Part shown: positions 2,905 through 54,072 of the stretch, piece by piece
Layout: each line of letters opens with the position of its first letter
Numbering within the stretch: position 1 is the stretch's first letter
NCBI GenBank assembly: GCA_021776915.1
Contig: JAIQZU010000007.1
Coordinates: 1-60,024 of the forward strand
DNA length: 60,024 nucleotides
Origin: Candidatus Scalindua sp.
GTDB taxonomy: Bacteria > Planctomycetota > Brocadiia > Brocadiales > Scalinduaceae
Direction: 5' to 3'
Made by a program: the position numbers and the translations under genes
The notes under the pieces: generated by a model
What the model saw: the letters and a program-made list of their open reading frames with translations, nothing else
What the model was told of the DNA's origin: nothing
Databases searched by the model: none

Positions 2905-3105
2905 TTCCCCCTCATTTCCTTCTTAATATTTATTAAGAACAGAACTTACTGCTGAGCACGACTGCTCACGTACTGGTACAAGAGCAATGTTCTTCAAATA
3001 AAAGGATAACCACTAATCCATTTTAAAGCAAGAGTTGATTTATGTGTTAAACAGCCTGTAAGTAGGGATGCAGCCTGCCCGGCAATTTGCATCTAATTCC
3101 TTAAA

Positions 3106-3780
3106 TTAAAAAGGTTCGATGGTACTGAGGAAGGTCAAACGATTATTATCTGTCGGGTGGGTGAAGATCAACTCTTGAGCGTGCAGGAATAATCGATCGG
3201 CCAGTGCAAATGCTGCCTTATGGCCATAAAGCTCATCGCCAAGAATGGGGTGTCCCAGCGCCTGCATATGTACACGTAGCTGGTGTGTTCGCCCTGTAAC
3301 AGGGATTAATTCCAGGCTGCAACTGTCTTCATGCCGCTCCAGAATCCGCCAGAAAGTTTGAGCCGCTTTACCATGTTGGTGATCGATGATCTGCAGTGGA
3401 CGCCGTTCCAGATCGCAGCGCAACGGTACATTTACCTCACCGGATTCTTCCTCAGGGTGGCCGTATACTTTTGAGATATATGTTTTCTCGGTTTCACGAT
3501 CCTGAAACTGGCGACTTAGCTCACGGTGTGATTCCGGGTTTTGTGCAATAATCATGAGGCCAGAAGTAGAAAAATCCAGGCGGTGAACGATAAGTGCGTT
3601 CGGGAAACGCTGCTGAACACGGTGAATGAGACAATCCTGTTTTTCCGGTGTCTTGCCGGGTACTGACAACATATTTGCCGGCTTATCAACAATGATGATC
3701 TGATCATCGTTATAAATATACTCAATGTCACCCCTTGGTGGAGGTAATTGCTTATGTATTATATGAGACAAAGAAGGCAT
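3106..3780 (-). CDS. rluA: RNA pseudouridine synthase, RluA type
   Basis: A 224-residue protein, the size of the short RluA enzymes without an S4 domain. It has the family landmarks in order: IIIVDKPANMLSVPGK (residues about 29-44), the catalytic HRLDFSTSGL with the nucleophilic Asp (about 66-75), KTYISKVYGHP, the RTHQLRVHMQALGHPILGDELY block and a C-terminal LFLHAQELIFTHP. E. coli RluA, which modifies U746 of 23S rRNA and U32 of some tRNAs, shows the same sequence of blocks. The leader before the catalytic domain is short. It is monocistronic, facing away from the ATPase gene at 4034. Confidence 0.9.
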   Translation of the reverse strand: MPSLSHIIHKQLPPPRGDIEYIYNDDQIIIVDKPANMLSVPGKTPEKQDCLIHRVQQRFPNALIVHRLDFSTSGLMIIAQNPESHRELSRQFQDRETEKTYISKVYGHPEEESGEVNVPLRCDLERRPLQIIDHQHGKAAQTFWRILERHEDSCSLELIPVTGRTHQLRVHMQALGHPILGDELYGHKAAFALADRLFLHAQELIFTHPTDNNRLTFLSTIEPF

Positions 3781-4033
3781 TGTTATTTTTAAGACGAAGC
3801 AATAGAAAAAAACTGATTTTAAACTGTCGGCTTAAAAATAACAAATGATATCTCAATACCTGTCTTGATGAAAGTATGGAGGGGATGTTTTTTACCATTT
3901 TATAACCCTATTCAGCCTATTGTGTACCCGAGAATTTACCTGGCATGTGCGACGTCCAAAGTTTTATAAATTGGAAAAGGATAAGCTCTTTTGTTATAAA
4001 TAAGCGGAAGTTATTAATAGGGCAGAGAAGCAG

Positions 4034-5746
4034 ATGCAAAATCAAAATGAACTGGTTCAGGCTTTATCAAAAATGGATGGGAAGTCATACCCTGCTTATA
4101 AGGCTATAAAGGGCAGTTATCAATATCAGGATTTTGAGCTTTCGATAGACCACGTCCAAGGCGACCCGTTTGCCATACCCAGTAAGGTAAGAGTCATAAT
4201 TCCAATACGTACAGCCCAATTCCCGGAAGACACATATCATAATGACTGCAGGAATGTTGCCTTGTGTGACTTCCTTGCAAGACGGTTTTATCATTCCATT
4301 AAAAAGCATAATACACAAAGGGAGGGTTCGGGGAAAAGCGGCGTTATCGAAATAGACCGTCCGGGACAGGAGGTGCTCAAAACCTCTTCTATGGTCATAA
4401 AAGACGGTTGTGTTGAGGCGCGTTTCCTGGTTGGTCTCCCGGCTTTTGGTCGCAGGATTGCCGGCAGGATAGCCGCTAACATATTTTCAGAAGTTATTCC
4501 TCAGGTTGTAAACGATTCATTGTGTTTCCGGGAGCTTCCTGAAGATAAATTGTACCGTCATATTGAGACCGTTGAGGATGCTGAATTTATCAGGGAGAAA
4601 TTACCTGAATTAGGTTGGATAGCATTTGTAGCGGATAATGCTGTTTTACCCAGGGCCAGTGGAGTCGATCCCCGGCCGCTGAGTACAGGAAAACTGGTAC
4701 CTTTTGAAAGCTGTCAATCGATGAGAGTCAGCATAGAATTACCCAACCATGGCCCAATAACCGGGATGGGGATTCCTGAAGGTGTGACATTGGTTGTGGG
4801 TGGAGGATATCATGGGAAATCCACTCTATTGAACGCATTGGAACACGGAGTATATAACCATATCCCGGATGATGGCCGTGAGTTTGTGGTAACCAATGCC
4901 GATGCAGTCAAGATAAGGGCGGAGGACGGACGCAGTATTCAGAATCTGAATATAGACCCCTTTATCTCTAATCTGCCGTTTGATCAGGCTACCACTACAT
5001 TTTCTACTGCTAATGCCAGTGGGAGTACCTCTCAGGCAGCTAATATCCTGGAGGCATTGGAGGTCGGGGCGCAGGCTCTTTTGCTGGATGAGGATACGCT
5101 GGCAACAAATTTCATGATCAGCGATCCGCGGATGAAGGCTCTGATCGCAAAAGAGAAGGAACCCATTACGCCATTTGTGGAACACGTGCGCAGACTCTAT
5201 GAAGAAAAGGGTATTTCAACCGTAATCGTAATGGGAGGCAGTGGCGACTATTTCAGCCTGGCAGATGTGGTTATAGGTATGATTGAATATGTTCCGCATG
5301 ATTTAACTGCTCAGGCGCATCAGATAGTTAAGGATAATCCTTCTCCTCAGGACTTTGATGTTGTGTCCCCTTCAGACATTCAGCGCATTCCCACATCAAA
5401 TATACTGAGCGCTGCAAAAGGAAAAAGATCGGTAGACATTAAAATAGAGGACCTTCTATATATGCGCTTTGGTGAACACAAGGTTCAGGTTGGAGCGGTG
5501 GAACAGCTCGTGCATCCCAGTCAGCTGAGGGCGATAGGATACGCCATCCATTATGCCGGCCGTTATATAGACGGCCGGAGAAGCATAATGGAAATATGCC
5601 GGCAGGTGTTAGCCGATATCAGAGAAAAAGGGCTGGATTGTTTGAGTGATAGGGAGGCAAGGGGTGACTTTGCTGAATTCAGGATCTACGAAATGGCAGC
5701 AACGCTGAACCGGTTTCGGGCCCTGAGAGTAGAGCAGAGGGGCTGA
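4034..5746 (+). CDS. Predicted ABC-class ATPase, COG3044 family
   Basis: A 570-residue soluble protein. The Walker A motif is GGGYHGKSTLLNALEHG (about residues 256-272). A signature-like SGSTSQAANILEALEVGAQ runs directly into the Walker B segment ALLLDEDTLATNFM, and a conserved IVMGGSGDYFSLADVVIGM block follows. The long N-terminal half, the hairpin-rich C-terminal third and the absence of membrane segments match the COG3044 group of stand-alone ABC-type ATPases. Their substrate is unknown; an RNA role has been suggested because some lie near RNA genes. Here rluA is the divergent neighbour, which fits but proves nothing. Confidence 0.85.
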   Translation: MQNQNELVQALSKMDGKSYPAYKAIKGSYQYQDFELSIDHVQGDPFAIPSKVRVIIPIRTAQFPEDTYHNDCRNVALCDFLARRFYHSIKKHNTQREGSGKSGVIEIDRPGQEVLKTSSMVIKDGCVEARFLVGLPAFGRRIAGRIAANIFSEVIPQVVNDSLCFRELPEDKLYRHIETVEDAEFIREKLPELGWIAFVADNAVLPRASGVDPRPLSTGKLVPFESCQSMRVSIELPNHGPITGMGIPEGVTLVVGGGYHGKSTLLNALEHGVYNHIPDDGREFVVTNADAVKIRAEDGRSIQNLNIDPFISNLPFDQATTTFSTANASGSTSQAANILEALEVGAQALLLDEDTLATNFMISDPRMKALIAKEKEPITPFVEHVRRLYEEKGISTVIVMGGSGDYFSLADVVIGMIEYVPHDLTAQAHQIVKDNPSPQDFDVVSPSDIQRIPTSNILSAAKGKRSVDIKIEDLLYMRFGEHKVQVGAVEQLVHPSQLRAIGYAIHYAGRYIDGRRSIMEICRQVLADIREKGLDCLSDREARGDFAEFRIYEMAATLNRFRALRVEQRG

Positions 5747-6580: not shown

Positions 6581-9500
6581 TCAGCATATTTCCTCATACT
6601 CACACCACTTACATCTCTGATCACTCAACTTTTTAAAGTCTCCATCCTTATGTGCCGTGAAGAAGTTGTTCAGAGTTGAGTCTAATTCTCTGCAGGCCTC
6701 ATCAGTTGTATCAACTACTACCGGCTTATCCGGTACAAGGAAGTAGAGTATGGTTTCATCCACCTTTTTGCCATAAATAGTTTCCAGTGCTCTGGCATAG
6801 AGGTGCATCTGCAGTTGGTAGTACTTTACCTTCTCCGGTATTTCATCAGTAGTAATATCATTTGCCTTGTAGTCAATAATTTTTAACAGACCTTCATTGT
6901 TAGAATAGAAGAGGTCTATCTGCCCCCTTATAAGATTGTGCCTGTAATTGAAAATAAATGATGTCTCCCGTTTCTGCTGTTTACTTGAAACAACTTCCTT
7001 ACCAATATCGCTATTGTAGAAAGAGTTTACCCAGTTCGCAACACGGTCTATACTGTCCCGGTTAGTATCCAGCCCAAAGACATTTAGCTCTTTTTTAATA
7101 TACTCTTTGAGGTTATCTTCAGGAAAATGGTAGTTCTTAAAGACCCGGTGTACGATATTTCCCAGCTCGTGTCCGGGCAGTTCATCGTCTTTCAGATTGC
7201 TTCCATCTTCGGCTTCGGCATAATCCGGCTCGATCCAACGTCTTTCATCTATACCCTGCAGACCCAGAATAGAATTAAAATAATATAACTGCGGGCAAAA
7301 GTGAAACTTGAGTATCTCTGTGACGGAGTATACATAGTGACTGTTATCAACATCTACTCTGTGCGTGATTGTTGACAAAATATTTTTGCCCGCCTCAGCT
7401 ATCTCTTTCGAAGGTGGAGATGTCTTGATTTTGTTACATGCTGCTATCTCTTTTTTGTATTGAGTCAGCAGTTTAATTTTCTTGCCCTCTTTTGGAGGTT
7501 TATTTTCCTCTTTTATGCGCGTATGTTTTATCTCGACCGTTTGTGGTGAATTCCGGCCGTGCTTATTGTCATCGAGTTCTATGATTTCCGGGTTTTCCTT
7601 GGGGTCAGGGTTCAGGCCGAGAGTTGAAGAGACATAACCGTACCAGTTACCATTGTCTTTCTCTCCTTTAGCCCTGTTCCTGTTTATGCCTCCGGAGATT
7701 ATCAGGTGTTCCTGTGCCCTCGTCATTGCTACAAAGAGTAAGCGTCTTGATTCCCTTAATTCCTTTTCTTTTGATTCATCATTAATCCGTTCATAACTCA
7801 GGGGTCTTTCCTCTTCATTAGTCAATGGGTTCAGTATCTTAAAGCTGATTCCATGGTCCTTTGAATATACAAAATAATCTGAAGGCCTTGTGTTGTCTCT
7901 ATCAACGTCGGCAACAATAACAACCGGAAATTCCAACCCTTTAGCGGAATGGGTCGTAATCAATTTAACAACGTCATCTTCCTCGGATTCTACCGGTGCT
8001 TCGGATTCCCTTATCTCCCTGAACTTATAACCTTCTACAATCTCAATAAAATTCCTCAATGTCAGGGGTTCGAAATCCTCCTGGTTTTTACATAATTCGA
8101 CAAGCTTCAGGAGGTTTGCATACCTCTTTTTTCCATTGGAGAAAAGAAGCATCTTTGATTGAAATTCTGTCTTCTTGAGTATTAGAGAGATCAGGTTCCA
8201 TAATGAGGTTCTGGGTTTGATGCCTTGTACCTCATTCAGGAATTGTCTGAATTGAATAATCCTGTCCCGTGATTGAGATTCGATTTCTTTTATTGTGCCA
8301 GCTTCATCCAGGGCCTGATAGAGAAGTCTATTCTCATTGTTGTTATGGGCGTGATCTGCCAGCCGGAAAAGGGCGTCATCGTCTATTCCGACAAACGGAG
8401 ACTTTAAGACGGCAGCCAGGTTTATCTCATCGAGTGGTGATTCGATAACCTTCAGGAGGTTTATCAGATCGGTGATCTCCGTAGTATTAAAGAATCCCCT
8501 TCCGCTGACGACATAGTAAGGGACATCAAGATGTGACAAACTGCGTTCATATAGTTTTATATCTGTTGTACTCCGAAACAGGATGGCAAAGTCCCTGTAA
8601 GATATATTCCGCTCCCGTTCTCTTTTGTTTGTAATTTTGATTTCACCCTTTTCAACAATCTCCTTTATTCTTTTTGCTATCTCCATTGATTCCCATTTCC
8701 GAGCCTCGGTTTTATCCTTCCCCTCCGCCACGACTATTTCAATTGAGGGGAATGGTTTGTCTGAAAATTCTGCACCTGCCTTTAACTGTGTATTATTCGT
8801 TACCACCCCTTCATCCCCTCCTTCTAAAGGAGGGGAAATAGAATCAATGTGATCTTCCTGTTGGTTGGTTGGGATGCATTGCCATAACTTGTTAAAAATA
8901 TGGTTTATAAAATCGAGTATCTGTGGACGGCTCCTGAAGTTTTCATTCAGGCTTATTAAAGATTCCCGGTCGGAATCTTTCTGTATATCCTGAAATATTT
9001 CAACCTCTGCATCCCTGAAACCATAAATGGATTGCTTCTCATCACCCACAATGAATAAATTATCCTTGCTTCTTATGAGGTCAATTATGGTTTTCTGCAG
9101 TCTGCTTATGTCCTGAAATTCATCAACCAGTATGTACCGGAACTTTTGTTGTATTTCTTTTGCTATCTGTTTTTTATCCTTCAGTAATTCTATTGTTTTG
9201 GCCTCAAGGTCTGTAAAGTCAATAAGGCTCTCAGTCCTTTTCCATTCCGAATAGGCAATATCAAAATTTACGAGAAAATCTCTTAACACCATCTTCATAC
9301 TTGTAGAATAATCCTCTGCGAGTAATCCTATAAGGATTTTAAGTTCTTCGCGCAGGTTACTGCAAGGTTGTTTTACATCCTTTGATACGGACAGGTTTAT
9401 GACAGAGTGAATACCTTTGACTCTGTTTAATAAAGCAAGTATGAGGTTGTTTGCAGTTGGATTTTCAGTGGTTTTGACCTCCCCTGTTTCCCCTCCTTGT

Positions 9501-10279
9501 GAAGGAGGGGATAAGGGGTGGTGTTTTCCCTTTTTTCCGTATAGTTTGTTTATATCATTTTGCATGTTTGAGGTATTCCAACGTTCTAAAACATTTTCTA
9601 CTTTGTCTCTGGTTTTCTCAGGGAGTATTTTTTCTGAGCAGATTCCACTGATTTCGCTTATCAGTTTCTCGACCTCGTTATAAGAATTTAAAATGTCCTG
9701 AGACAAATCATTCTGGTTTACGGTTCGTGCGATAGGCACGCATGCATTCCTGATCTTTTCATAGAGCATGATGAGGTTTTCCTTGAATGACTTTAACCTG
9801 CTCTTTTTGTAGTCGGTTTGTTTCCAGAATATGTCGTTCAGGAATGTATCCAGGCTTTTTTCCTCTGCCCATTTTTTAAGTGTGTTCTCCAATGTCTGTT
9901 CTTTGACTCTGCCGGCTTCGAGTTCATCCATGACGCGGAATTGAGGATCGATGCTCGCCTCTATTGCGTTTTCTCTGAGTAACCGTGAACAGAAACTGTG
10001 GATGGTGGATAGATAAGCAAACTCTATCTCCTGACGCTCCTTTTCCATTCCCTTCTCTTCGAACAACCTTGCCGCCCTTATCTTCATCTCGTTTGCCGCT
10101 TTCTCAGTGAAAGTAAGGGTGAGGGTTTCGTTGATTGATACCTTATGTTCGGTCACAAGACTCGCAAATCGTTCCACAAGTACACGTGTCTTCCCCGAAC
10201 CGGGCCCGGCGACAACACAGAGGTCCCTATCCGTAATCGTAACACCTTTTTGCTGAGAAGTGGTTAGTTCATTTGTCAT
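6581..10279 (-). CDS. addA: AddA-type UvrD-family helicase with Cas4-like Fe-S nuclease domain
   Basis: A 1232-residue protein of the RecBCD/AddAB class, which processes double-strand breaks and degrades foreign linear DNA. Superfamily 1 motifs appear in order: VAGPGSGKTRVLVERF (about residue 27), ILVDEFQDISRLQ, SIYGFRDAEVEIF, LNENFRSRPQIL, ITTHSAKGLEFPVVIVADVD and LLFVAMTRAQEHLIISG. The C-terminus is a PD-(D/E)XK nuclease (GHELGNIVHRVF, RGQIDLFY, IIDYKAND, YYQLQMHLYARALE). It has a four-Cys set, one in FHFCPQLYYF and three in RCKWCEYEEIC, typical of Fe-S nucleases. Two in-frame palindromic insertions encode PLSPPSQGG and SPPLEGGDEG segments. It is separated from addB by 213 bases holding a dispersed repeat. 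Confidence 0.88.
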   Translation of the reverse strand: MTNELTTSQQKGVTITDRDLCVVAGPGSGKTRVLVERFASLVTEHKVSINETLTLTFTEKAANEMKIRAARLFEEKGMEKERQEIEFAYLSTIHSFCSRLLRENAIEASIDPQFRVMDELEAGRVKEQTLENTLKKWAEEKSLDTFLNDIFWKQTDYKKSRLKSFKENLIMLYEKIRNACVPIARTVNQNDLSQDILNSYNEVEKLISEISGICSEKILPEKTRDKVENVLERWNTSNMQNDINKLYGKKGKHHPLSPPSQGGETGEVKTTENPTANNLILALLNRVKGIHSVINLSVSKDVKQPCSNLREELKILIGLLAEDYSTSMKMVLRDFLVNFDIAYSEWKRTESLIDFTDLEAKTIELLKDKKQIAKEIQQKFRYILVDEFQDISRLQKTIIDLIRSKDNLFIVGDEKQSIYGFRDAEVEIFQDIQKDSDRESLISLNENFRSRPQILDFINHIFNKLWQCIPTNQQEDHIDSISPPLEGGDEGVVTNNTQLKAGAEFSDKPFPSIEIVVAEGKDKTEARKWESMEIAKRIKEIVEKGEIKITNKRERERNISYRDFAILFRSTTDIKLYERSLSHLDVPYYVVSGRGFFNTTEITDLINLLKVIESPLDEINLAAVLKSPFVGIDDDALFRLADHAHNNNENRLLYQALDEAGTIKEIESQSRDRIIQFRQFLNEVQGIKPRTSLWNLISLILKKTEFQSKMLLFSNGKKRYANLLKLVELCKNQEDFEPLTLRNFIEIVEGYKFREIRESEAPVESEEDDVVKLITTHSAKGLEFPVVIVADVDRDNTRPSDYFVYSKDHGISFKILNPLTNEEERPLSYERINDESKEKELRESRRLLFVAMTRAQEHLIISGGINRNRAKGEKDNGNWYGYVSSTLGLNPDPKENPEIIELDDNKHGRNSPQTVEIKHTRIKEENKPPKEGKKIKLLTQYKKEIAACNKIKTSPPSKEIAEAGKNILSTITHRVDVDNSHYVYSVTEILKFHFCPQLYYFNSILGLQGIDERRWIEPDYAEAEDGSNLKDDELPGHELGNIVHRVFKNYHFPEDNLKEYIKKELNVFGLDTNRDSIDRVANWVNSFYNSDIGKEVVSSKQQKRETSFIFNYRHNLIRGQIDLFYSNNEGLLKIIDYKANDITTDEIPEKVKYYQLQMHLYARALETIYGKKVDETILYFLVPDKPVVVDTTDEACRELDSTLNNFFTAHKDGDFKKLSDQRCKWCEYEEIC
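8802..8842. repeat. Intragenic palindromic element 1 in addA
   Basis: On the plus strand the sequence around CCCCTCCTTCTAAAGGAGGGG (8816-8836) is a near-perfect inverted repeat. It belongs to the very common family of short palindromes of the CCCCTCC...GGAGGGG kind. It lies inside addA and is translated without a frameshift as SPPLEGGDEG, between the helicase motif IV region and the next domain, where a surface loop is expected. Confidence 0.7.
9478..9527. repeat. Intragenic palindromic element 2 in addA
   Basis: A second member of the same palindrome family, centred on CCCCTCCTTGTGAAGGAGGGG (9490-9510). It is translated in addA as HHPLSPPSQGGETGEV. It sits in a loop-like region between helicase segments, flanked by ordinary helical coding sequence, and preserves the reading frame. 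Confidence 0.7.
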
Positions 10280-10492: not shown

Positions 10493-13400
10493 TCACCTCA
10501 ATCTCCATTTATCGATACGGCAGACGTTTGCGAAATCGCAGTTTCCCTCACCGCAGAAATCAATATTTGCCGGAGCAAGTTCAATCCTTCCCTTGCGAAT
10601 TTCCCTTGCGAATTTCAGAATATGGTTCTCTGCATCTTTCAGCAGCTTGTTAAATTCTTTGTTATCAACGGAAAGCGATTTCCTAGCTGGTTTTATATTG
10701 AGCTTAAGTTTGTCGATTAACTCCCGATTATATATTCCGGTTTTTTTAGAGGTCTTCAGTGCATAAAATTCAGCAGCAACGGGAATAACCCTGAACACAT
10801 CTCTCAAGGCAAGTATGTAGATGGGCAGTTGCAGATCCAGGCCTTCTTCTAGTTCCGTTAGCCTGAATTCTGTCTGTCCGTATTTGTAGTCAATGATTAT
10901 GCCGACTTTTTCTCCATCAACTTCTGAAACATCAACCCTGTCAATCTTGCCGGAGATTTCAATACCATCTTTTTCTCCATCACCGATTTTCAGGGTCTCA
11001 AGCTCTTCATCCCCGAATTTTGCTTCAAACATGGAAGGTTTAAACATTGGCAGATTAGATTCCTTTTCCATGGATTCAAATACCAGAAGCGTATTAAGCA
11101 TCTCATTCCTGGCCTTCAATTCTTCAAAACCTGTAACCATTCCTCTGGTTTCCCGGTTAAAAATATCATCAAATATCCCGGTTATATCTTTAGTCTCTCC
11201 AGTGTCTTTAAGATACTCCTCAAGTACTTTGTGAATGATGGTACCCTGCATTAACAGATCCATAGATTTGGGAATGGCCTGCCTGAGTTTGAGTGTTGAT
11301 CTGCCAAAATATTTATAAGGGCACTGGGCATAGTCTTTCAACTTTGTGGGTGAAAACCTTGTGCTTGTTTCACTGATCTTCTCTACTATCTTTTTATCAG
11401 AGAGTTTAAGCTTCAGGTTATTGTAGGTATCTATCAGTGTCGTTAATGTGCAGAGTTCTTCCCTGAGTGAAGCCTTGTTTTCTGTATTGTTATTATATAA
11501 CCAGAGTGCGATTGCCTTTTCGTACTGCTCCTTTTCAGACACATAGGGGGTATTAAGGTGATAATAGACAAAGTTCTTTGAATCGGTAGAAGTAATAATG
11601 TCATCAGGTTCGGGAATTATCTTTGAAAGGTTTCTCCGGATTGTGATTCCTTGAACTGTTTCCTCCGGGAGTAACTTCTGAGTGTCAGAAAGGAAAAAAG
11701 ACGGCATTGTCAAATTTCCGTTGCTGTTTGCTGACGGGTAAGATAAATAAAGCCTCTCCTTTGCACGCGTAACGGCGATGTAGAACAGGTATCTCTCTTC
11801 GTCCATCTGCTCGTAGACTTCTCTCAGGGCAATCTTTCCAGTGGCATTAAGTTTTCTTCTGTGAAAATCTTTCAAGAACAGGTCTTCCCGTACTTGGAGG
11901 GGAAATTCTTTTTCGAGCAGGCCTCCCACAAAGACGACTGGCATTTCCCACTGTCTGGCTTCCAGTACATTGATAACGTTAACAACCTCCTGGCGTTTGT
12001 CTGTTTCCCTGTATGACGATAAGGCGACCTGTGATTCAAGGATATAGTTGAATTCTCTGAATGTAATGTTCCCTGTATCATTAGAAATTTCGGAAAGATC
12101 ACCAAGGGTGGTGTTGTTGAGGATCGACATGAATTCCTTCAGGGCGCCTGCGTCCGATTTCATCAACCCTGAGGCTTCCAGATGATGATAATGATTTCCT
12201 TCATCAATAGATTTCACAGGCGGCATAAACGCCGGTTTGTAAAACAGGTTCACAATGTCAGTATAGCATTTGCAATAATAGCTGAATGTATGTCTGCCAT
12301 CCAGGTTGGTGAAAATCTTCTTCAGTTCCTTCAGGAATTTGCTGACAGGCTTTAATTCATAGACCGAGGTGAGTTTCAGCCATTTATTGTAATCGTTAAC
12401 AGTGCCTCTTTTCAGGTATTCCTGTTCCAGTCTGTTTATAAGGTTTCCGTCTATGCCTGTGTTGGATTTTAAAACCTTCCAGACCGCTTCATCCTGCCAC
12501 TTATCTGTAAAGATTTGTGATGTATTTATTACGGCCTTGATCAGAGGATTGCCTTTTAAGTGTTTCCTGCCATAGATTCTTACCGGGATGCTGAACCTGG
12601 TGAAGGTATCTTCAACGATATCCCGATACTTTTCGATGTTTCTGAATATCACGGCAATCTGGCTGAAGGTATAACCATCCCTGTAAGTCAGTTTTCTTAT
12701 CATGCGGGCGATCTGTTCTACTTCATCCTGCATGTTAGCAGCAGCAGTAATCCGCAATGACGTGCCGGAGCTATCAGGTTCCGGTATAAACGGGTCTTCA
12801 GGTTGAGAGAATATGTTTGCTTCGATATGTCCTAGCATCCGGCTGGTTGTTCTCCTATTCTCATCAAGCCGCAATTCCCTGAGATTCAATTCCGAGAGTC
12901 TGGAATATGTCTTGTGAGAAACCCGGAATGCGGGTGGTACAGGATCAGCAATTTGATATGGCAGAGTGACGTAGACATTCGATATAAGAGAAGTTAATTC
13001 CTTTATAAATTTCAGTTCGAGTTGTGTGTAATCGTGGAAACCGTCTATTAGTAACAGTTCGACTTCGGAGAAGGTATCCTTGTCCATTTGTGACAGGGCC
13101 TGCGCCAGGAAATCCTCCCTGTCCATCAGGTCATTTTTATTCAGAGCTTTTTGATAAAGATCATAAAGCTTTACCAGTTCGTTACACTTCAGGTTAAGGG
13201 GTGAATCGTCATTGCCTGTTTGAATCCCTTTGAGTAAGTCTTTAAAGGGAAGCGGGCCGAGTGAGTTTTCTTTAATCTCTCTTACAAAACTCAGGAAGGC
13301 GCCTTTAAACCCTGTATAACCTGAAACCCCTGAGAAGTAACCCTTGTCGGCGCTTTTAAAGATGTCTGAAAGGATCAGGTACTTCTCACCTTCATTGATC

Positions 13401-13663
13401 AGTTTCTGGAAGGGTGCGATATCAACACTGTTCAGTATCTTATTTGCCAGTCCGGAGAAGGTGACGAGTCCTGTGTCTAGATAACCCTTAAACTTTGATG
13501 TCCTTAAGATATGATCTCTGAGATGTTCAACCTGACTGTGGCTTGGCAGGATGAAGATTACGTTATCTTCTTTGTGTTCTTCAACAAATTCTAGGAATTT
13601 CTGAAGGACAAGGTGTGTTTTGCCGCTGCCGGCTTTTCCTGAGACTAAGAACCTTTCTTGCAT
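10493..13663 (-). CDS. addB: AddB-type helicase-like nuclease subunit
   Basis: From the ATG at 13663 the protein is 1056 residues long. It begins MQERFLVSGKAGSGKTHLVL (Walker A), then LLIDGFHDYTQLELKF (Walker B-like), EARQWEMPVVFVGGLLEKEF and YLFYIAVTRAKERLYLSYP. The C-terminal nuclease domain has YAQCPYKYFGRSTL, GTIIHKVLEEYL, ISGKIDRVD, IIDYKYG and the terminal Cys set CGEGNCDFANVC. This is the AddB arrangement, with an Fe-S nuclease at the end. The open frame extends to 13780, but I prefer 13663: the duplicated fragment at 15594 starts at the same Met, and the likely -10 box lies at 13766-13771. With addA it would form a two-nuclease recombination and degradation complex. Confidence 0.85.
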   Translation of the reverse strand: MQERFLVSGKAGSGKTHLVLQKFLEFVEEHKEDNVIFILPSHSQVEHLRDHILRTSKFKGYLDTGLVTFSGLANKILNSVDIAPFQKLINEGEKYLILSDIFKSADKGYFSGVSGYTGFKGAFLSFVREIKENSLGPLPFKDLLKGIQTGNDDSPLNLKCNELVKLYDLYQKALNKNDLMDREDFLAQALSQMDKDTFSEVELLLIDGFHDYTQLELKFIKELTSLISNVYVTLPYQIADPVPPAFRVSHKTYSRLSELNLRELRLDENRRTTSRMLGHIEANIFSQPEDPFIPEPDSSGTSLRITAAANMQDEVEQIARMIRKLTYRDGYTFSQIAVIFRNIEKYRDIVEDTFTRFSIPVRIYGRKHLKGNPLIKAVINTSQIFTDKWQDEAVWKVLKSNTGIDGNLINRLEQEYLKRGTVNDYNKWLKLTSVYELKPVSKFLKELKKIFTNLDGRHTFSYYCKCYTDIVNLFYKPAFMPPVKSIDEGNHYHHLEASGLMKSDAGALKEFMSILNNTTLGDLSEISNDTGNITFREFNYILESQVALSSYRETDKRQEVVNVINVLEARQWEMPVVFVGGLLEKEFPLQVREDLFLKDFHRRKLNATGKIALREVYEQMDEERYLFYIAVTRAKERLYLSYPSANSNGNLTMPSFFLSDTQKLLPEETVQGITIRRNLSKIIPEPDDIITSTDSKNFVYYHLNTPYVSEKEQYEKAIALWLYNNNTENKASLREELCTLTTLIDTYNNLKLKLSDKKIVEKISETSTRFSPTKLKDYAQCPYKYFGRSTLKLRQAIPKSMDLLMQGTIIHKVLEEYLKDTGETKDITGIFDDIFNRETRGMVTGFEELKARNEMLNTLLVFESMEKESNLPMFKPSMFEAKFGDEELETLKIGDGEKDGIEISGKIDRVDVSEVDGEKVGIIIDYKYGQTEFRLTELEEGLDLQLPIYILALRDVFRVIPVAAEFYALKTSKKTGIYNRELIDKLKLNIKPARKSLSVDNKEFNKLLKDAENHILKFAREIRKGRIELAPANIDFCGEGNCDFANVCRIDKWRLR

Positions 13664-13745
13664 ATAATTTTCTAATTTTTGTACAAGCGTTAACGTCCGC
13701 CTTAGGCGCGAATTAACAATGATTAAGTTATATTTAAATGCCATG

Positions 13746-13794
13746 CATGTATAATGTGTACACACATTATACATGAGCATTTAAAGATTGTCAA
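13746..13794 (-). promoter_or_regulatory. Minus-strand promoter with palindromic operator, reading into addB
   Basis: On the minus strand TTGACA (13794-13789), 17 bases, then TATAAT (13771-13766) make a consensus sigma-70 promoter pointing at addB. A 30-base near-palindrome, ATAATGTGT..ACACATTAT with flanking CATGT/ACATG (13746-13775), covers the -10 box and the start site. The same palindrome core recurs at 13836-13867 on the AbiE promoter. Confidence 0.75.
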
Positions 13795-13817
13795 ATATAT
13801 TTTACATATTTTTTCTA

Positions 13818-13867
13818 TTGACAAATATGGTTTAGTATGATATAATGTGTATACACATTATATCATA
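13818..13867 (+). promoter_or_regulatory. AbiE operon promoter with a perfect 32-base palindromic operator
   Basis: TTGACA (13818-13823), exactly 17 bases, then TATAAT (13841-13846) form a consensus sigma-70 promoter for the AbiE pair. A perfect 32-base palindrome (13836-13867, core ATAATGTGTATACACATTAT) overlaps the -10 box. AbiEi proteins are known to bind inverted repeats in their own promoter and repress it, so this is the likely AbiEi operator. Its centre is about 91 bases from the centre of the matching operator at 13746-13775. Confidence 0.8.
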
Positions 13868-13884
13868 AGTCTTGTATATGCTCT

Positions 13885-14757
13885 ATGTTTTCTAAATCTA
13901 TAAGAAAGAAGCTCAGCGAACATTTCTCGACTCCTGTACGTCATAAACATTTGCAGGAACATGCGGAACGCATCATTGGACAAACTCGATACTCTGTTGT
14001 TGCCAACCTCATGCATGATTTGCTGGAAAACGGTATTGTCAGCTCCTACAAGCTTACTGCCAAAAACAACAAGACCGTTACCCTGTTCTGTTCACGTAAA
14101 CTCGACAAGATAAATCCATACGAGATAGCACATGCCTTGTTTCCGCAAGAATATTTCTGCAATTTGTCTTCCATCTACTACCATTTGCTAACGAACCAGG
14201 TACCAAAAGCGATATACATATGTACGTCTGCCAAACGGATAAATGAGAACACCGTAAATGACAATGAACTGCGCCGCTCCTTCATCAAACCACACCGGCA
14301 TACGAAACACGTGTATACGCTCAATGGCTACGAGGTCATTGTTGTGGAACGTGCAAGAATCTCGAACTCCGGAGTTGTTGAAAGTCATCCATCAAGCACA
14401 TTGTTACCGAACAAGTCTCGTGTTACTTGTATTGAACGTGCCCTGATAGACGCGGTTGTGAGTCCGCATTATAATGGCGGAATAGTCAGTGTATACACAT
14501 ATTTCAGGAATGCACGGGACATGCTGGACATGGCAAGTCTTATCAAAATTTACAGGCGTTTGGACTTTGTTTATCCATATTCGCAATCCATTGGATTCCT
14601 TCTAGACAGAGCGGGCATGCCAAAGTATGCATCAGTTATCTATAAAAGTTTTCCGCCTGAGCGCAGTTTCTATGTTGACCACGACGCAAAGACTTCATGG
14701 ATTTATGACGAGAAATGGAAACTCTATTACCCTGCGGGACTTGTAGATGAAAATTGA
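13885..14757 (+). CDS. AbiEi-type antitoxin/repressor of a type IV toxin-antitoxin system
   Basis: A 290-residue protein. The N-terminal about 85 residues form a winged-helix region (RYSVVANLMHDLLENGIVSS). A domain of the AbiEi type follows, with INPYEIAHALFPQEYFCNLS, then the conserved block SRVTCIERALIDAVVSPHYNGG and a C-terminal SIGFLLDRAGMP. AbiEi antagonises the AbiEii nucleotidyltransferase and represses the operon. Its gene overlaps the toxin gene by 11 bases. A consensus promoter with a palindromic operator lies directly upstream. The whole pair is bracketed by two copies of the addB 5' end. Confidence 0.88.
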   Translation: MFSKSIRKKLSEHFSTPVRHKHLQEHAERIIGQTRYSVVANLMHDLLENGIVSSYKLTAKNNKTVTLFCSRKLDKINPYEIAHALFPQEYFCNLSSIYYHLLTNQVPKAIYICTSAKRINENTVNDNELRRSFIKPHRHTKHVYTLNGYEVIVVERARISNSGVVESHPSSTLLPNKSRVTCIERALIDAVVSPHYNGGIVSVYTYFRNARDMLDMASLIKIYRRLDFVYPYSQSIGFLLDRAGMPKYASVIYKSFPPERSFYVDHDAKTSWIYDEKWKLYYPAGLVDEN

Positions 14758-15586
14758 AGAAGTAATTACTCAAACTATAATTGCTATATATAGTGCTCCC
14801 TCGCCATCAAAAACTCTTTTTTTAAAGGGAGGAAGTGCAATGCGGTTGTTCGACAATCTGACTTCACGTCTTTCGATAGACGCAGATTTTTCAGTCAATA
14901 CGGATATAGATAATGAGAACAAATTCTTTCGAGACTTGAAGTCTTCTGCGGGGGCCAGCTTCAGAAGAAAAAGATTCGATATTATTGATTTCGAGTGGAA
15001 TAGAAAACTTGAGAAGATCCGAGCGGGATATCCGGATTGGTGGGGTGGATGGCTATGTGAGTTCAAACTTGTTTCCTTTCGACACAGAGGCAAGGTGATA
15101 GAAACTAAGAGGAGAAATGCTTTGATTCCAGACGGGGCTAACTCTTCGAAGATTACAGTGGAAATAAGCAAGCATGAATACTGTGGAAAGAAACGAACCA
15201 AAACTATTCAGGGCGTAAAGATCTTCGGGTATTCTCGCGAGTTGCTTGTTCTAGAGAAGATTCGTGCCATTTGTCAGCAGCATCCTGATTATGCGTACAG
15301 ATCGAGCAAGAACAGAGCGCGTGATTTCTATGACATATACGAATTGACTGCCAATGCAGACGACAGTTTTATAAGTAGGTGTGGTTCTCAAATAGAGAAG
15401 GTATTCCGTGCGAAAGAAGTTCCTCTGGAAATTCTGGCTTCGTTGTGGGAAATCGACTTTATTGATGAGCAACGCCGAGGATTTGATGAAGTGAAAGATA
15501 CCGTGACTGGAGAGATTCATGACTTCGATGTTTATGTTGAGCACTTGCGATTCTTCGTGAAGGACATTTATCCAGAAGTTATGTAG
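14747..15586 (+). CDS. AbiEii-type nucleotidyltransferase toxin
   Basis: A 279-residue protein. The nucleotidyltransferase signature is FLKGGSAMRLF, then RLSIDADFSV (residues about 26-50), which gives the GS...DxD metal-binding set. A conserved RARDFYDIYELT (about 193-204) matches motif IV of AbiEii/AbiGii toxins. Such toxins transfer nucleotides to tRNA or other targets and abort phage infection. It is translationally coupled to AbiEi by the 11-base overlap. The distal direct repeat of addB starts within about 15 bases after its stop, so the cargo ends here. Confidence 0.88.
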   Translation: MKIEEVITQTIIAIYSAPSPSKTLFLKGGSAMRLFDNLTSRLSIDADFSVNTDIDNENKFFRDLKSSAGASFRRKRFDIIDFEWNRKLEKIRAGYPDWWGGWLCEFKLVSFRHRGKVIETKRRNALIPDGANSSKITVEISKHEYCGKKRTKTIQGVKIFGYSRELLVLEKIRAICQQHPDYAYRSSKNRARDFYDIYELTANADDSFISRCGSQIEKVFRAKEVPLEILASLWEIDFIDEQRRGFDEVKDTVTGEIHDFDVYVEHLRFFVKDIYPEVM

Positions 15587-15593
15587 TTGAACC

Positions 15594-15791
15594 CTAACCC
15601 TTAAACTTTGAGCCCTGAACTTGTTTCAGGGTCGGGATGTGATTTCTAATGTGTTCTACCTGACTGTGGGTTGGCAGGATAAAGATTACGTTATCTTCTC
15701 CGTGTTTCTTAACATAAAGAAGAAATTTCTGAAGGACAAGGTGTGTTTTGCCACTGCCGGCTTTTCCTGAGACTAAAAACCTTTCTTGCAT
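15594..15791 (-). pseudogene. addB': Duplicated 5' fragment of addB
   Basis: Sixty-five codons starting MQERFLVSGKAGSGKTHLVL and continuing VKKHGEDNVIFILPTHSQVE repeat the first about 60 residues of AddB, in the same orientation, 2128 bases away. The tail TLKQVQGSKFKG is the translation of a short palindrome (CCCTGAAC..TTTCAGGG, about 15612-15632) inserted after the duplication, followed by a stop. The similarity also covers about 20 bases upstream of the ATG. It is a non-functional remnant; the intact gene is on the other side of the AbiE cargo. Confidence 0.85.
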
Positions 15792-15867
15792 ATAGTTTTC
15801 TAATTTTAGACAAGATTAACAGGATAAACAAGGGGTGATTTATAATAATGGATTGTTTATGTTGAAT

Positions 15868-16590
15868 CTAAACAGCAGTTAATTTTTGTGTGGGCATTTC
15901 ATCCCACGTAACACCATCAAGAATCCTTCCATTTTTCTTCTTCTGAACACCGCCCCATTGTTTGAAAAAGAACGGCACATTTTGTTCAATGCATTGATCC
16001 CTTACCTCTCTTGCCCAGTCTGCCTCGATGGAACGCGCTCGTGGACCAGATTCCCCACCAACAATGACCCAATCAATGCCTGACAGGTTTAGCTCGCCAA
16101 GAGGTCCGAGTAAAGGCTCTAGTGAAAGAAATTTTGTTTTTGCAGGTGTTTTTCTAAGATAATCTATACGGTATTTAAAAGACTCATTCTCAACTGTAAC
16201 CCCCATCCAAATGTGACTATCCCATTTGATCATTTCTGATAATTCTAATAACCGCTTTGCCCGCTTGGTTAAAACCTGATAAAAGTGTTGATCTGCAATG
16301 TTCATTACGCCAAAAACCTGTTTTATAAAATCAAGTGGTACTTTTTCATGAAAGACATCGCCCATGGAGTTGACAAAAACCATATTCGATTTTTTCCACT
16401 TTAATGGAGTATCCAACATATGGGGATGGCACACAACTTCAAAGCCATTATTATAATTTTGCTGCCCCATTGCTTTAAGTCTTTTTGCCATTCTTTCTGC
16501 ATAACAATTATCACAGCCTTCACTGATTTTGTTGCAACCAGTTACAGGATTCCAGGTAGATTCCGTCCATTCGATTTTGCTTTTGCTCAT
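15868..16590 (-). CDS. DUF5131 / phage Gp37-Gp68-like three-Cys-motif protein
   Basis: A 240-residue protein beginning MSKSKIEWTESTWNPVTGCN. The N-terminal CNKISEGCDNCYAERMA holds three cysteines (19, 26 and 29) in the C-x6-C-x2-C pattern that gives the three-Cys group its name and may bind an Fe-S cluster, as in radical SAM relatives. Other family landmarks are VFVNSMGDVFHEKVP, QVLTKRAKRL, WMGVTVEN, FLSLEPLLGPL, WVIVGGESGPRAR and FFFKQWGG. The gene starts one base after the tcmP stop, so the two form an operon. The function is not established; relatives occur in phages and genomic islands. Confidence 0.85.
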   Translation of the reverse strand: MSKSKIEWTESTWNPVTGCNKISEGCDNCYAERMAKRLKAMGQQNYNNGFEVVCHPHMLDTPLKWKKSNMVFVNSMGDVFHEKVPLDFIKQVFGVMNIADQHFYQVLTKRAKRLLELSEMIKWDSHIWMGVTVENESFKYRIDYLRKTPAKTKFLSLEPLLGPLGELNLSGIDWVIVGGESGPRARSIEADWAREVRDQCIEQNVPFFFKQWGGVQKKKNGRILDGVTWDEMPTQKLTAV

Positions 16591-16591
16591 T

Positions 16592-17689
16592 TTATAACAC
16601 CTTAAACTTTTTGATTTCTTTGCTTTTATAGCACTTATTATAACTTATATTATGATGGCCTGCGTAACTAATTTTGTTTTCTAATTTCTTAATCACCGGC
16701 AAGGCATTATTGATGACATGCCCGTTTTCTAATGCGAAATCATAAACCTCTTTATTCGAAACCTCATTTTTAGATAAAATGAATTCTTCCAGATCAAGCT
16801 GAAACTTTTCTATTTTGGATAGCTTTCTATTAACGAATGAAAAAACCATTTGAGAAGTTTTCCAGTCTTCATCAATATCAAAATTTGCCTCTCCATTCAG
16901 CGCATTGGTTTCCCATGCTATCTTTAGGAATTTTTCGATACCCAGTGGATGGTTTGAGCCAAAGATTAAACCATAAATATTCCGCCCTTTTTTGATAGTG
17001 AATGGGTATAGTTTTAATTGGCTGTCATTAGGTATTTTACTTTTATAGTATTGAAGAATCATTCTATGCATTTCAGATTGGCTAGTCATCGACAATTTAT
17101 GAATGTCAATGTCTGGGAAATATTTTTGAAAACTTGTGTCAGAAGCGAATCTTTTGAATGCAGAAGAAGATACAAAGAACATAAAATCAGTTCTATGGAA
17201 TTTTGCTAGGTCAAGAAATATTTCTTCAGTGACTTGTTTGATTCCGCTTTGATCCAGAAAAACTAAATTAAAATGATTTTCTAGCAATGGTTTTTTACTG
17301 ACAAATAGTTGTTTAAAGTCTAGATTGAAAATTTCAATGGAAAGATTGCTATCTAAGTTTTTTAAGGTTTCTTGCTCTTCTGCAATACAATCTCGTAGTT
17401 GCTGACACTTTGTAGGAGTGTATTCGTTAAACAGAATATGGATTTTCAGATTTTGTTTTAGAATATTATCTTCAAATTTTTTTATGGTTTTTATTATTCT
17501 TATAGGACTGCCATCGGTTCCCTTTATGTCCCTGCCAATTCCTGCAAAAAAGTCGCATATATTTACCTCTGTTATAAATCGAGACTGAATGGCAACGGGA
17601 AGCCAGGATTCAAGATATTTTTGAAAAATATCTAATTTAATGATAGTTTCTTCTGAAAAGGGTCGTTTGTGTAAATCTTTGGCAGCCAT
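16592..17689 (-). CDS. tcmP: Three-Cys-motif partner protein TcmP
   Basis: A 365-residue protein that begins with the TcmP-type sequence HKRPFSEETIIKLDIFQKYL. A methyltransferase-like nucleotide-binding segment, ICDFFAGIGRDIKGTDGSPI, follows at about residues 44-63. Later blocks are LFNEYTPTKCQQL, NLVFLDQSGIKQ and FMFFVSSSAFKRF. TcmP proteins are defined by adjacency to a three-Cys protein, and the DUF5131 gene follows here after one base. Probably part of a mobile defence or modification module; no activity has been shown from sequence. The start is ATG 17689. Confidence 0.85.
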   Translation of the reverse strand: MAAKDLHKRPFSEETIIKLDIFQKYLESWLPVAIQSRFITEVNICDFFAGIGRDIKGTDGSPIRIIKTIKKFEDNILKQNLKIHILFNEYTPTKCQQLRDCIAEEQETLKNLDSNLSIEIFNLDFKQLFVSKKPLLENHFNLVFLDQSGIKQVTEEIFLDLAKFHRTDFMFFVSSSAFKRFASDTSFQKYFPDIDIHKLSMTSQSEMHRMILQYYKSKIPNDSQLKLYPFTIKKGRNIYGLIFGSNHPLGIEKFLKIAWETNALNGEANFDIDEDWKTSQMVFSFVNRKLSKIEKFQLDLEEFILSKNEVSNKEVYDFALENGHVINNALPVIKKLENKISYAGHHNISYNKCYKSKEIKKFKVL

Positions 17690-39310: not shown

Positions 39311-40032
39311 CTAGAAAATTGGGACACATCCCATTTTTCAAAAAAGGGATGTGTCCCAATTTTTTTTGTTGCTGTTTTTTTAACCAGGTTATGTGCCTGT
39401 CTTACCGGCTCTGGAAGCCTGTATCCACGGCAGCTTCTTAAGATAAGGGCAATGGATGTTTTTAGATCTATCTTATGACCGGGAGAAACAAAGACAGGTT
39501 TAACGTTTTTCCTTGTTCTCAGTACCGCACCAACGATTTTATCTTTTACCATAAGCGGAGATTGGCTGCCCGCCTCTCCACATACCTCGTTGTATTCACC
39601 TGTCAGTCTTGTTTTTGCACACCCGATTGTGGGTTTATCTAACAGCAAACCTATATGAGACGCCAAACCTATTCCACGAGGATGGGCTATGCCTTGTGCG
39701 TCTAATATTATAACATCGGGTTCTGCCTTAATCTTTTCAAATGCCTTCAATAATATCGGTGCCTCTCGAAAACTCAACAAACCGGGAATGTATGGAAAAT
39801 CAACCTTACCGCTTGCCGTAACCTCCTCAACTCTTTCCATAGTTTTTAAGTTGAACACAACCACACTGGCATAAAATATCTCACTTCCCTTAGTATAAGA
39901 AACGTCAGCACCGGCAATCAATTTACAGTTTTTTGCCGAACCTTTTAGAATAATACTCTTTTGTAATCTCTCCTGTATTTCAACTGCCTTTTTATAACCT
40001 ACGTTCCATGCATGTGGCTTCAGATATTTCAT
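39307..40032 (-). CDS. nfi: Endonuclease V (deoxyinosine 3' endonuclease)
   Basis: A 241-residue repair nuclease that nicks DNA next to deoxyinosine. Motifs: KLIAGADVSYTKG with the first catalytic Asp, YIPGLLSFREAPIL, VIILDAQGIAHPRGIGLASH with the second Asp, and GCAKTRLTGEY. The ending FFEKWDVSQFSS is encoded by the hairpin at 39315-39364, so the terminator overlaps the coding end. It is tail-to-tail with the zinc-ribbon gene, with four bases of overlap. Confidence 0.92.
   Translation of the reverse strand: MKYLKPHAWNVGYKKAVEIQERLQKSIILKGSAKNCKLIAGADVSYTKGSEIFYASVVVFNLKTMERVEEVTASGKVDFPYIPGLLSFREAPILLKAFEKIKAEPDVIILDAQGIAHPRGIGLASHIGLLLDKPTIGCAKTRLTGEYNEVCGEAGSQSPLMVKDKIVGAVLRTRKNVKPVFVSPGHKIDLKTSIALILRSCRGYRLPEPVRQAHNLVKKTATKKIGTHPFFEKWDVSQFSS
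39315..39364. terminator. Bidirectional terminator hairpin
   Basis: AAAATTGGGACACATCCC and GGGATGTGTCCCAATTTT are exact complementary 18-base arms around a 14-base loop, with A/T runs on both sides. It serves the convergent zinc-ribbon and nfi genes and encodes the last residues of nfi. Confidence 0.88.
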
Positions 40033-53639: not shown

Positions 53640-54072
53640 ATATTATGAATTCAACGCAGACCTGTCCGTCAGTTTGTTAGGCGAGGACGCAATGAATTCT
53701 GAATAATTATATTAAAAAAATCAAATCAAAATATTTAATTAATCAGTACAGTAAACCACCAGCTATGGTGTGACCAAATAGGGCTATGCTGAGCAATGAG
53801 AGAAAACATTTACTCGTGTGAATAAATGATGCGTCCTATAAAATTTCTGTCCAGTCCTGATGAATTCCTGCCCGACGCAAGGCAGGCGGGCGTTCGAACG
53901 GGCCTGACGACAGTCCTCTCTTTCGAGAGGAATCCAATACTGGATTCCTCTCGAAAGAGAGGACTATGGTTTTTATGTAGGGTTAGTTTCCTAAACGAAC
54001 CTTTTATTAAAGGCTACTTGGGAAACAGCCCATACATTATATTAAGTAGTATCTGTTGCAACTCCTATTTAA
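53640..54072. other. lysA-argH interval: no gene, one long hairpin
   Basis: No gene is recognisable. Besides the hairpin at 53912-53965 there are short GC-rich pieces (CCTGCCCGACGCAAGGCAGGCGG at about 53868-53890, itself a small fold-back). Confidence 0.55.
53912..53965. repeat. Perfect 25-base inverted repeat (long hairpin)
   Basis: Arms AGTCCTCTCTTTCGAGAGGA... (53912-53936) and its exact complement (53941-53965) surround the four-base loop ATAC. Each arm also holds the smaller palindrome CTCTTTCGAGAG. There is no T-run to make it a classical terminator. Confidence 0.85.

Follow-up and report, generated by a model that had tools for sequence, protein, structure and literature searches.

Does the repressor of an anti-phage toxin-antitoxin cassette also control the chromosomal DNA-degrading operon beside it? 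The question arises in the window, i.e., the whole 60,024-nt stretch of Candidatus Scalindua sp. DNA that was analysed, where abiE and addAB are read away from each other. The preliminary description had claimed that back-to-back promoters between them are each overlapped by a palindrome with a common core, and that AbiEi might act on both as a new regulatory link. The reading favored here, with a probability of roughly 0.6, is that a two-way AbiE promoter-operator, inserted at addB, drives addAB under shared AbiEi repression. The features concerned are as follows.

6581-10279, minus strand: addA, with UvrD-helicase (3.4e-58) and PDDEXK_1 matches
10493-13663, minus strand: addB, with Pfam ADDB_N (6.4e-30), PDDEXK_1 and UvrD_C matches; start from the comparison with congeners
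13482-13679, minus strand: copy A, the 5' end of the intact addB; 172 nt at 87% against copy B, plus a 17-nt exact match
13740-15594: AbiE cassette between the addB copies; approximate extent from a leader alignment of the window, the congener G003 and two congeners, with a left limit uncertain by some bases
13746-13775: op1, outer palindrome CATGTATAATGTGTACACACATTATACATG, overlapping the -10 box of the addB-facing promoter; 14 of 15 pairs, the innermost alone unpaired
13766-13794, minus strand: outward promoter TTGACA-17-TATAAT, facing addB
13818-13846, plus strand: abiE promoter TTGACA-17-TATAAT
13836-13867: op2, inner palindrome TATGATATAATGTGTATACACATTATATCATA, overlapping the abiE promoter at its -10 box and predicted start; 16 of 16 pairs
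13885-14757, plus strand: abiEi, winged-helix antitoxin/repressor homologue of 290 aa (PADLOC AbiEi, 8e-15; Foldseek)
14747-15586, plus strand: abiEii, nucleotidyltransferase toxin (DUF1814; Pfam PF08843, 2.4e-15, above the gathering score)
15595-15807, minus strand: copy B, an addB 5' stump right after the abiEii stop, with native upstream DNA beyond; same layout in G003

As in AddAB helicase-nucleases, AddB combines its N-terminal domain with a C-terminal nuclease, and the adjacent AddA is a UvrD-type helicase with a nuclease domain; the top NCBIfam models, addB_Gpos and addA_Gpos, both match under their equivalog cut-offs. The longest-ORF start of addB (13780) was replaced by the start at 13663 (MQERFLVSGKAGSGKT), which is common to congeners and from which a transcript of the outward promoter would carry a leader of ~95 nt. 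A second addB-addA pair is found on G000:C74 (1-3447, L028), with addB ~86% identical and a 126-aa ORF between the genes; it is either a real second copy or comes from a contaminating relative binned with the genome. Beside abiE, DUF5131 and TcmP genes (window 15868-17689) give very strong PADLOC matches to the candidate defence models PDC-M41B/M30B and PDC-M30A, which makes the region a small cluster of defence genes on the upstream side of addB.

On the other side, abiEi and abiEii lie on the same strand in a bicistronic layout with an 11-nt overlap (14747-14757). AbiEi of the window has zero Pfam matches (the Pfam model AbiEi_1 is found in just 5 of 18 relatives), and a search of the PDB by its sequence gave no AbiEi match; the fold search alone succeeded. 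With the AlphaFold model (pLDDT 86.9), Foldseek retrieved the solved structures of AbiEi (6y8q_A, 1.7e-07) and Rv2827c (1zel_A, 1.6e-06), both with a probability of 1.00; as modelled, the protein encoded at 13885-14757 has the fold of these antitoxin repressors. The locus thus combines AbiEi domains, an AbiEii of the DUF1814 family, a bicistronic operon and inverted repeats in the promoter, the hallmarks of type IV AbiE toxin-antitoxin systems. Relatives of AbiEi were also sought in phage records and viral contigs, and none was found there.

The intergenic elements bear out the preliminary description. The promoters toward AbiE and toward addB each match the sigma-70 consensus at 12 of 12 positions with a 17-nt spacer; TTGACA-N16-18-TATAAT occurs at three sites in the 60-kb window, while shuffles average 0.05 and never reach three. 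The two palindromes do possess a common core, ATAATGTGTNNACACATTAT, with the pairing given above. Their overlap with the promoters was also found, although it is more intimate than described: both -10 boxes lie inside the palindromes, which places the predicted start sites near the palindrome centres. Since each palindrome covers a -10 box and a start site, AbiEi bound at op2 would block abiE and AbiEi bound at op1 would block the outward promoter, so that both directions would be closed.

Relative to the abiEi start, the palindrome centres lie ~34 and ~125 bp upstream, with ~91 bp between them; the palindromes themselves are 60 bp apart, and each has a centre of 0 or 2 bp. No palindrome with arms of at least 13 was found in ten simulated 60-kb sequences, and the core, with up to three mismatches, is present at two sites in the window against 0.05 expected. 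In the 3.79-Mb genome, op1 and op2 alone carry the core at 0 mismatches, and all remaining sites carry three. A wider AbiEi regulon was rejected, as the genome contains no extra site with 0-2 core mismatches. The window also has longer palindromes, one at 53913-53964 (arm 26) and one at 39316-39361 (arm 23), the latter resembling a two-way terminator.

To which of the two operons the palindromes belong is indicated by relatives in other phyla. The AbiEi proteins nearest outside the genus, 54-56% identical, are encoded at L050 (in a record named Nitrospirae), L051 (Hainich groundwater) and L052 (Desulfobacterales). All three loci contain two palindromes at matching places together with a divergent TGTCAA...TTGACA pair, and a counterpart of op1 is present in L049-L052 (L049 being G003). 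In the genomes of L050-L052, the operator core within three mismatches is confined to the abiE locus. The centres are 91 bp apart in the window and in L050, 81 bp in L051 and 83 bp in L052; the difference across 81-91 bp is close to one helical turn and, with four loci, may be meaningful or accidental. Judged from these loci, the twin palindromes are a feature of the AbiE cassette and not of addB. Because both accompany AbiEi genes across phyla, including at loci away from addB, AbiEi very probably recognises both op1 and op2. The proposed switch shared by AbiEi and addAB is thus backed by the AbiEi fold and by the palindromes found with AbiEi across phyla, but in an altered form: op1 is AbiE's own and did not evolve for addAB. 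Frameshifts of abiEii in G003 and L051 coincide in the stretch encoding SKNRARDFYD (window 15299-15330, L049 2291-2320, L051 5395-5450), with abiEi intact in both; this could be an assembly error, a hot spot, or loss of the toxin with the regulator kept.

The generality of the twin palindromes, whatever the neighbouring genes, also suits another explanation, according to which op1 is an auxiliary AbiEi operator for abiE (cf. Rv2827c) and AbiEi has no meaningful control over addAB, the outward promoter being incidental or the source of a short non-coding transcript. The genes on the outward side differ or are absent: L051 has a metallophosphatase-NACHT-FGE protein, in L052 the promoter points into the antisense of a small HTH gene, and L050 has no clear gene. 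As the outward neighbours vary, the presence of the outward promoter may have a different cause; moreover, the palindromes of the distant AbiEi clade described below are as a rule not accompanied by a divergent -35 pair. Against this stands the preservation of the outward promoter itself, which matches at 12 of 12 positions in the window, G003 and L052 and at 11 (TATAAC) in L050 and L051. Its -35 box, like that of abiE (TTGACA), is unchanged across the five loci; the abiE-side -10 box differs from TATAAT in L050 and L051. Divergent TGTCAA/TTGACA pairs alone prove nothing, since at 0-3 per genome and strand they are insufficiently rare. In the window, no promoter match within the 300 nt in front of addB exceeds the outward promoter, which makes it the best candidate for an addB promoter on these grounds, although the addB leader might itself contain a weaker one.

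The apparently decaying abiE locus of G003, one metagenome-assembled genome, bears on the same choice. Here, op2 and the inward -10 box are short of ~11 nt and abiEii is frameshifted; the operator of abiE itself is not preserved, yet the outward promoter is kept at 12 of 12, and op1 carries four substitutions relative to that of the window, arranged as two symmetric pairs. Such retention would be predicted for an outward promoter that acts for addAB. With this evidence, a purely auxiliary role of op1 appears doubtful.

How addB came to lie next to an AbiE promoter is suggested by the duplicated 5' end of the gene. Copies A and B differ by 13%, which excludes an assembly artefact in the window, and G003 likewise has an addB 5' repeat past abiEii (168 nt at 96%). 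For nine congeners, the sequence in front of addB was readable; it contains no palindrome with arms of at least 12, and AbiEi was undetected in their genomes. The repeat and the palindrome-free congeners together indicate that addB is separated by abiE from its native upstream sequence. Entry of the cassette beside addB would have duplicated approximately the first 200 bp of the gene, and the observed layout would follow from one crossover with a circle that contained abiE together with part of addB. Synonymous divergence between the window genome and G003 is 0.21 for abiEi, 0.12-0.14 for abiEii and 0.37 for addB; given this inequality, the cassette may have changed place or undergone recombination since the two species diverged. 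In L050-L052, no long direct repeat flanks abiE, which leaves the two Scalinduaceae genomes as the only ones with the duplication. G003 also possesses a third copy of the addB start and upstream stretch (L109 3816-3927) beyond an oxidoreductase gene (3030-3719), which shows that the 5' end of addB was duplicated more than once at the locus.

By this route, the intact addB would have come to lie close to the cassette's outward promoter, with the native upstream DNA past abiE, and for this reason addAB is most likely transcribed from the outward promoter. The outward promoter probably drives addAB and, by analogy with known AbiEi proteins, AbiEi likely represses this transcription; loss of AbiEi would then raise the toxin operon and addAB together. 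A conserved AbiE-AddAB circuit was rejected: nine congeners are palindrome-free upstream of addB, AbiEi is undetected in them, and related AbiE loci have other neighbours. The regulatory link is accordingly likely for the window genome, and perhaps for G003, as a case of promoter capture.

The known AbiEi systems provide precedents for parts of this arrangement. AbiEi from Streptococcus agalactiae binds inverted repeats in its own promoter and represses it (PMC3985639). The window cassette resembles this system in its bicistronic abiEi-abiEii, winged-helix AbiEi, repeats overlapping the -10/-35 region and the fold match to 6y8q; however, the S. agalactiae system has one pair of 23-bp repeats at one promoter, whereas the window has two palindromes ~91 bp apart at two divergent promoters, one of them toward addAB. 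Rv2827c from Mycobacterium tuberculosis binds two sets of inverted repeats (PMC7319586). In Rv2827c-Rv2826c, as in the window, two such sets lie upstream of an AbiEi-like gene, and the fold match to 1zel is a further common point; the geometry differs, with a 13-bp gap inside each pair and 4 bp between pairs in Rv2827c, and centres of 0 or 2 bp and 60 bp between palindromes in the window. The text searched of that paper does not mention a divergent promoter, whereas in the window each palindrome covers an oppositely facing one. AbiEi from Streptococcus suis represses a second promoter (SezAT) and binds oriT (PMC11062541), and so acts, through similar palindromes, on a promoter that is not its own. 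Its targets are a toxin-antitoxin operon and the oriT of the same mobile element, whereas the putative target here is a chromosomal repair-nuclease operon beside the insertion. AbiEi promoters with multiple repeats and AbiEi acting on another promoter are therefore already known, and the suggested new link is best read as capture of addAB by such a promoter in two genomes of one genus.

The palindromes can be followed further, into AbiEi homologues of 23-35% identity from Acidobacteria, Myxococcota, Planctomycetota, Deltaproteobacteria and others. Most of these genes have upstream palindromes, usually two, with the core GTATATATAC. Within 22 kb of upstream DNA, this core was counted 59 times, at 29 of 35 loci, against four times in the remaining ~245 kb of these loci; the exceptions have a different core, a single palindrome, or none. 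Palindromes of the same locus have the core in common but not the outer arms, and each is paired to about 14 bp. At sites selected by the core, pairing at positions 8-14 from the centre reaches 80-93% against 26-29% expected from composition, while palindromes of the same locus agree at these positions in only 25-44%. Symmetry is thus kept where sequence is not. A divergent -35 pair is not generally present with these palindromes, and a shared promoter overlapping them was rejected for want of a common -35 offset.

In this clade (L055-L090), abiEi and an AbiEii-like gene run tail to tail on opposite strands, unlike in bicistronic AbiE; a brief paper search found no description of this arrangement. 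Of 18 measured loci, 17 have an overlap of 24-39 nt between the coding ends, and L071 has one of 4 nt; in L058, for example, the genes occupy 3755-4714 (plus) and 4679-5638 (minus). Similar pairs of palindromes or of cores are also located upstream of separate abiEii genes in L084, L055 and L077. Candidatus Scalindua sediminis (L073 4001-4861) encodes an AbiEi homologue with one palindrome and, by tblastn, no AbiEii at the locus; this AbiEi is perhaps a solitary regulator.

Symmetry kept without kept sequence is the most unexpected result, and its candidate causes include protein symmetry, cruciform formation and mutational correction. Among 39 mismatches, two are G-T and seven A-C; the lack of a G-U preference points to DNA rather than RNA. 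Control through an RNA hairpin or leader is disfavoured on this ground and because the predicted transcripts begin inside the palindromes. The same pairing statistics and the missing wobble signature would fit palindromes that act as DNA structures (cruciforms or hairpins under supercoiling), with AbiEi or RNA polymerase reading symmetry and not outer-arm sequence. Single strands of op1 and op2 do fold as full hairpins, but only at about -10 kcal/mol; known AbiEi proteins bind defined repeats (PMC3985639, PMC7319586), and template-switch correction can keep palindromes perfect without structural selection. This interpretation is rather improbable. Its most far-reaching form is a long shot: a widespread AbiEi clade would use symmetry-kept palindromes as cruciforms linking toxin-antitoxin expression to DNA topology, to which the outward promoter of the window lineage would add addAB.

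Core-conserved palindromes with locus-specific paired arms accompany most AbiEi genes that were examined within this clade, with no description in the papers searched, and they make what AbiEi recognises directly testable. If the capture of addAB is true, it would show concretely how an anti-phage toxin-antitoxin cassette can take over the regulation of a chromosomal operon for DNA repair and degradation, namely by inserting upstream of it and bringing along a repressible outward promoter.
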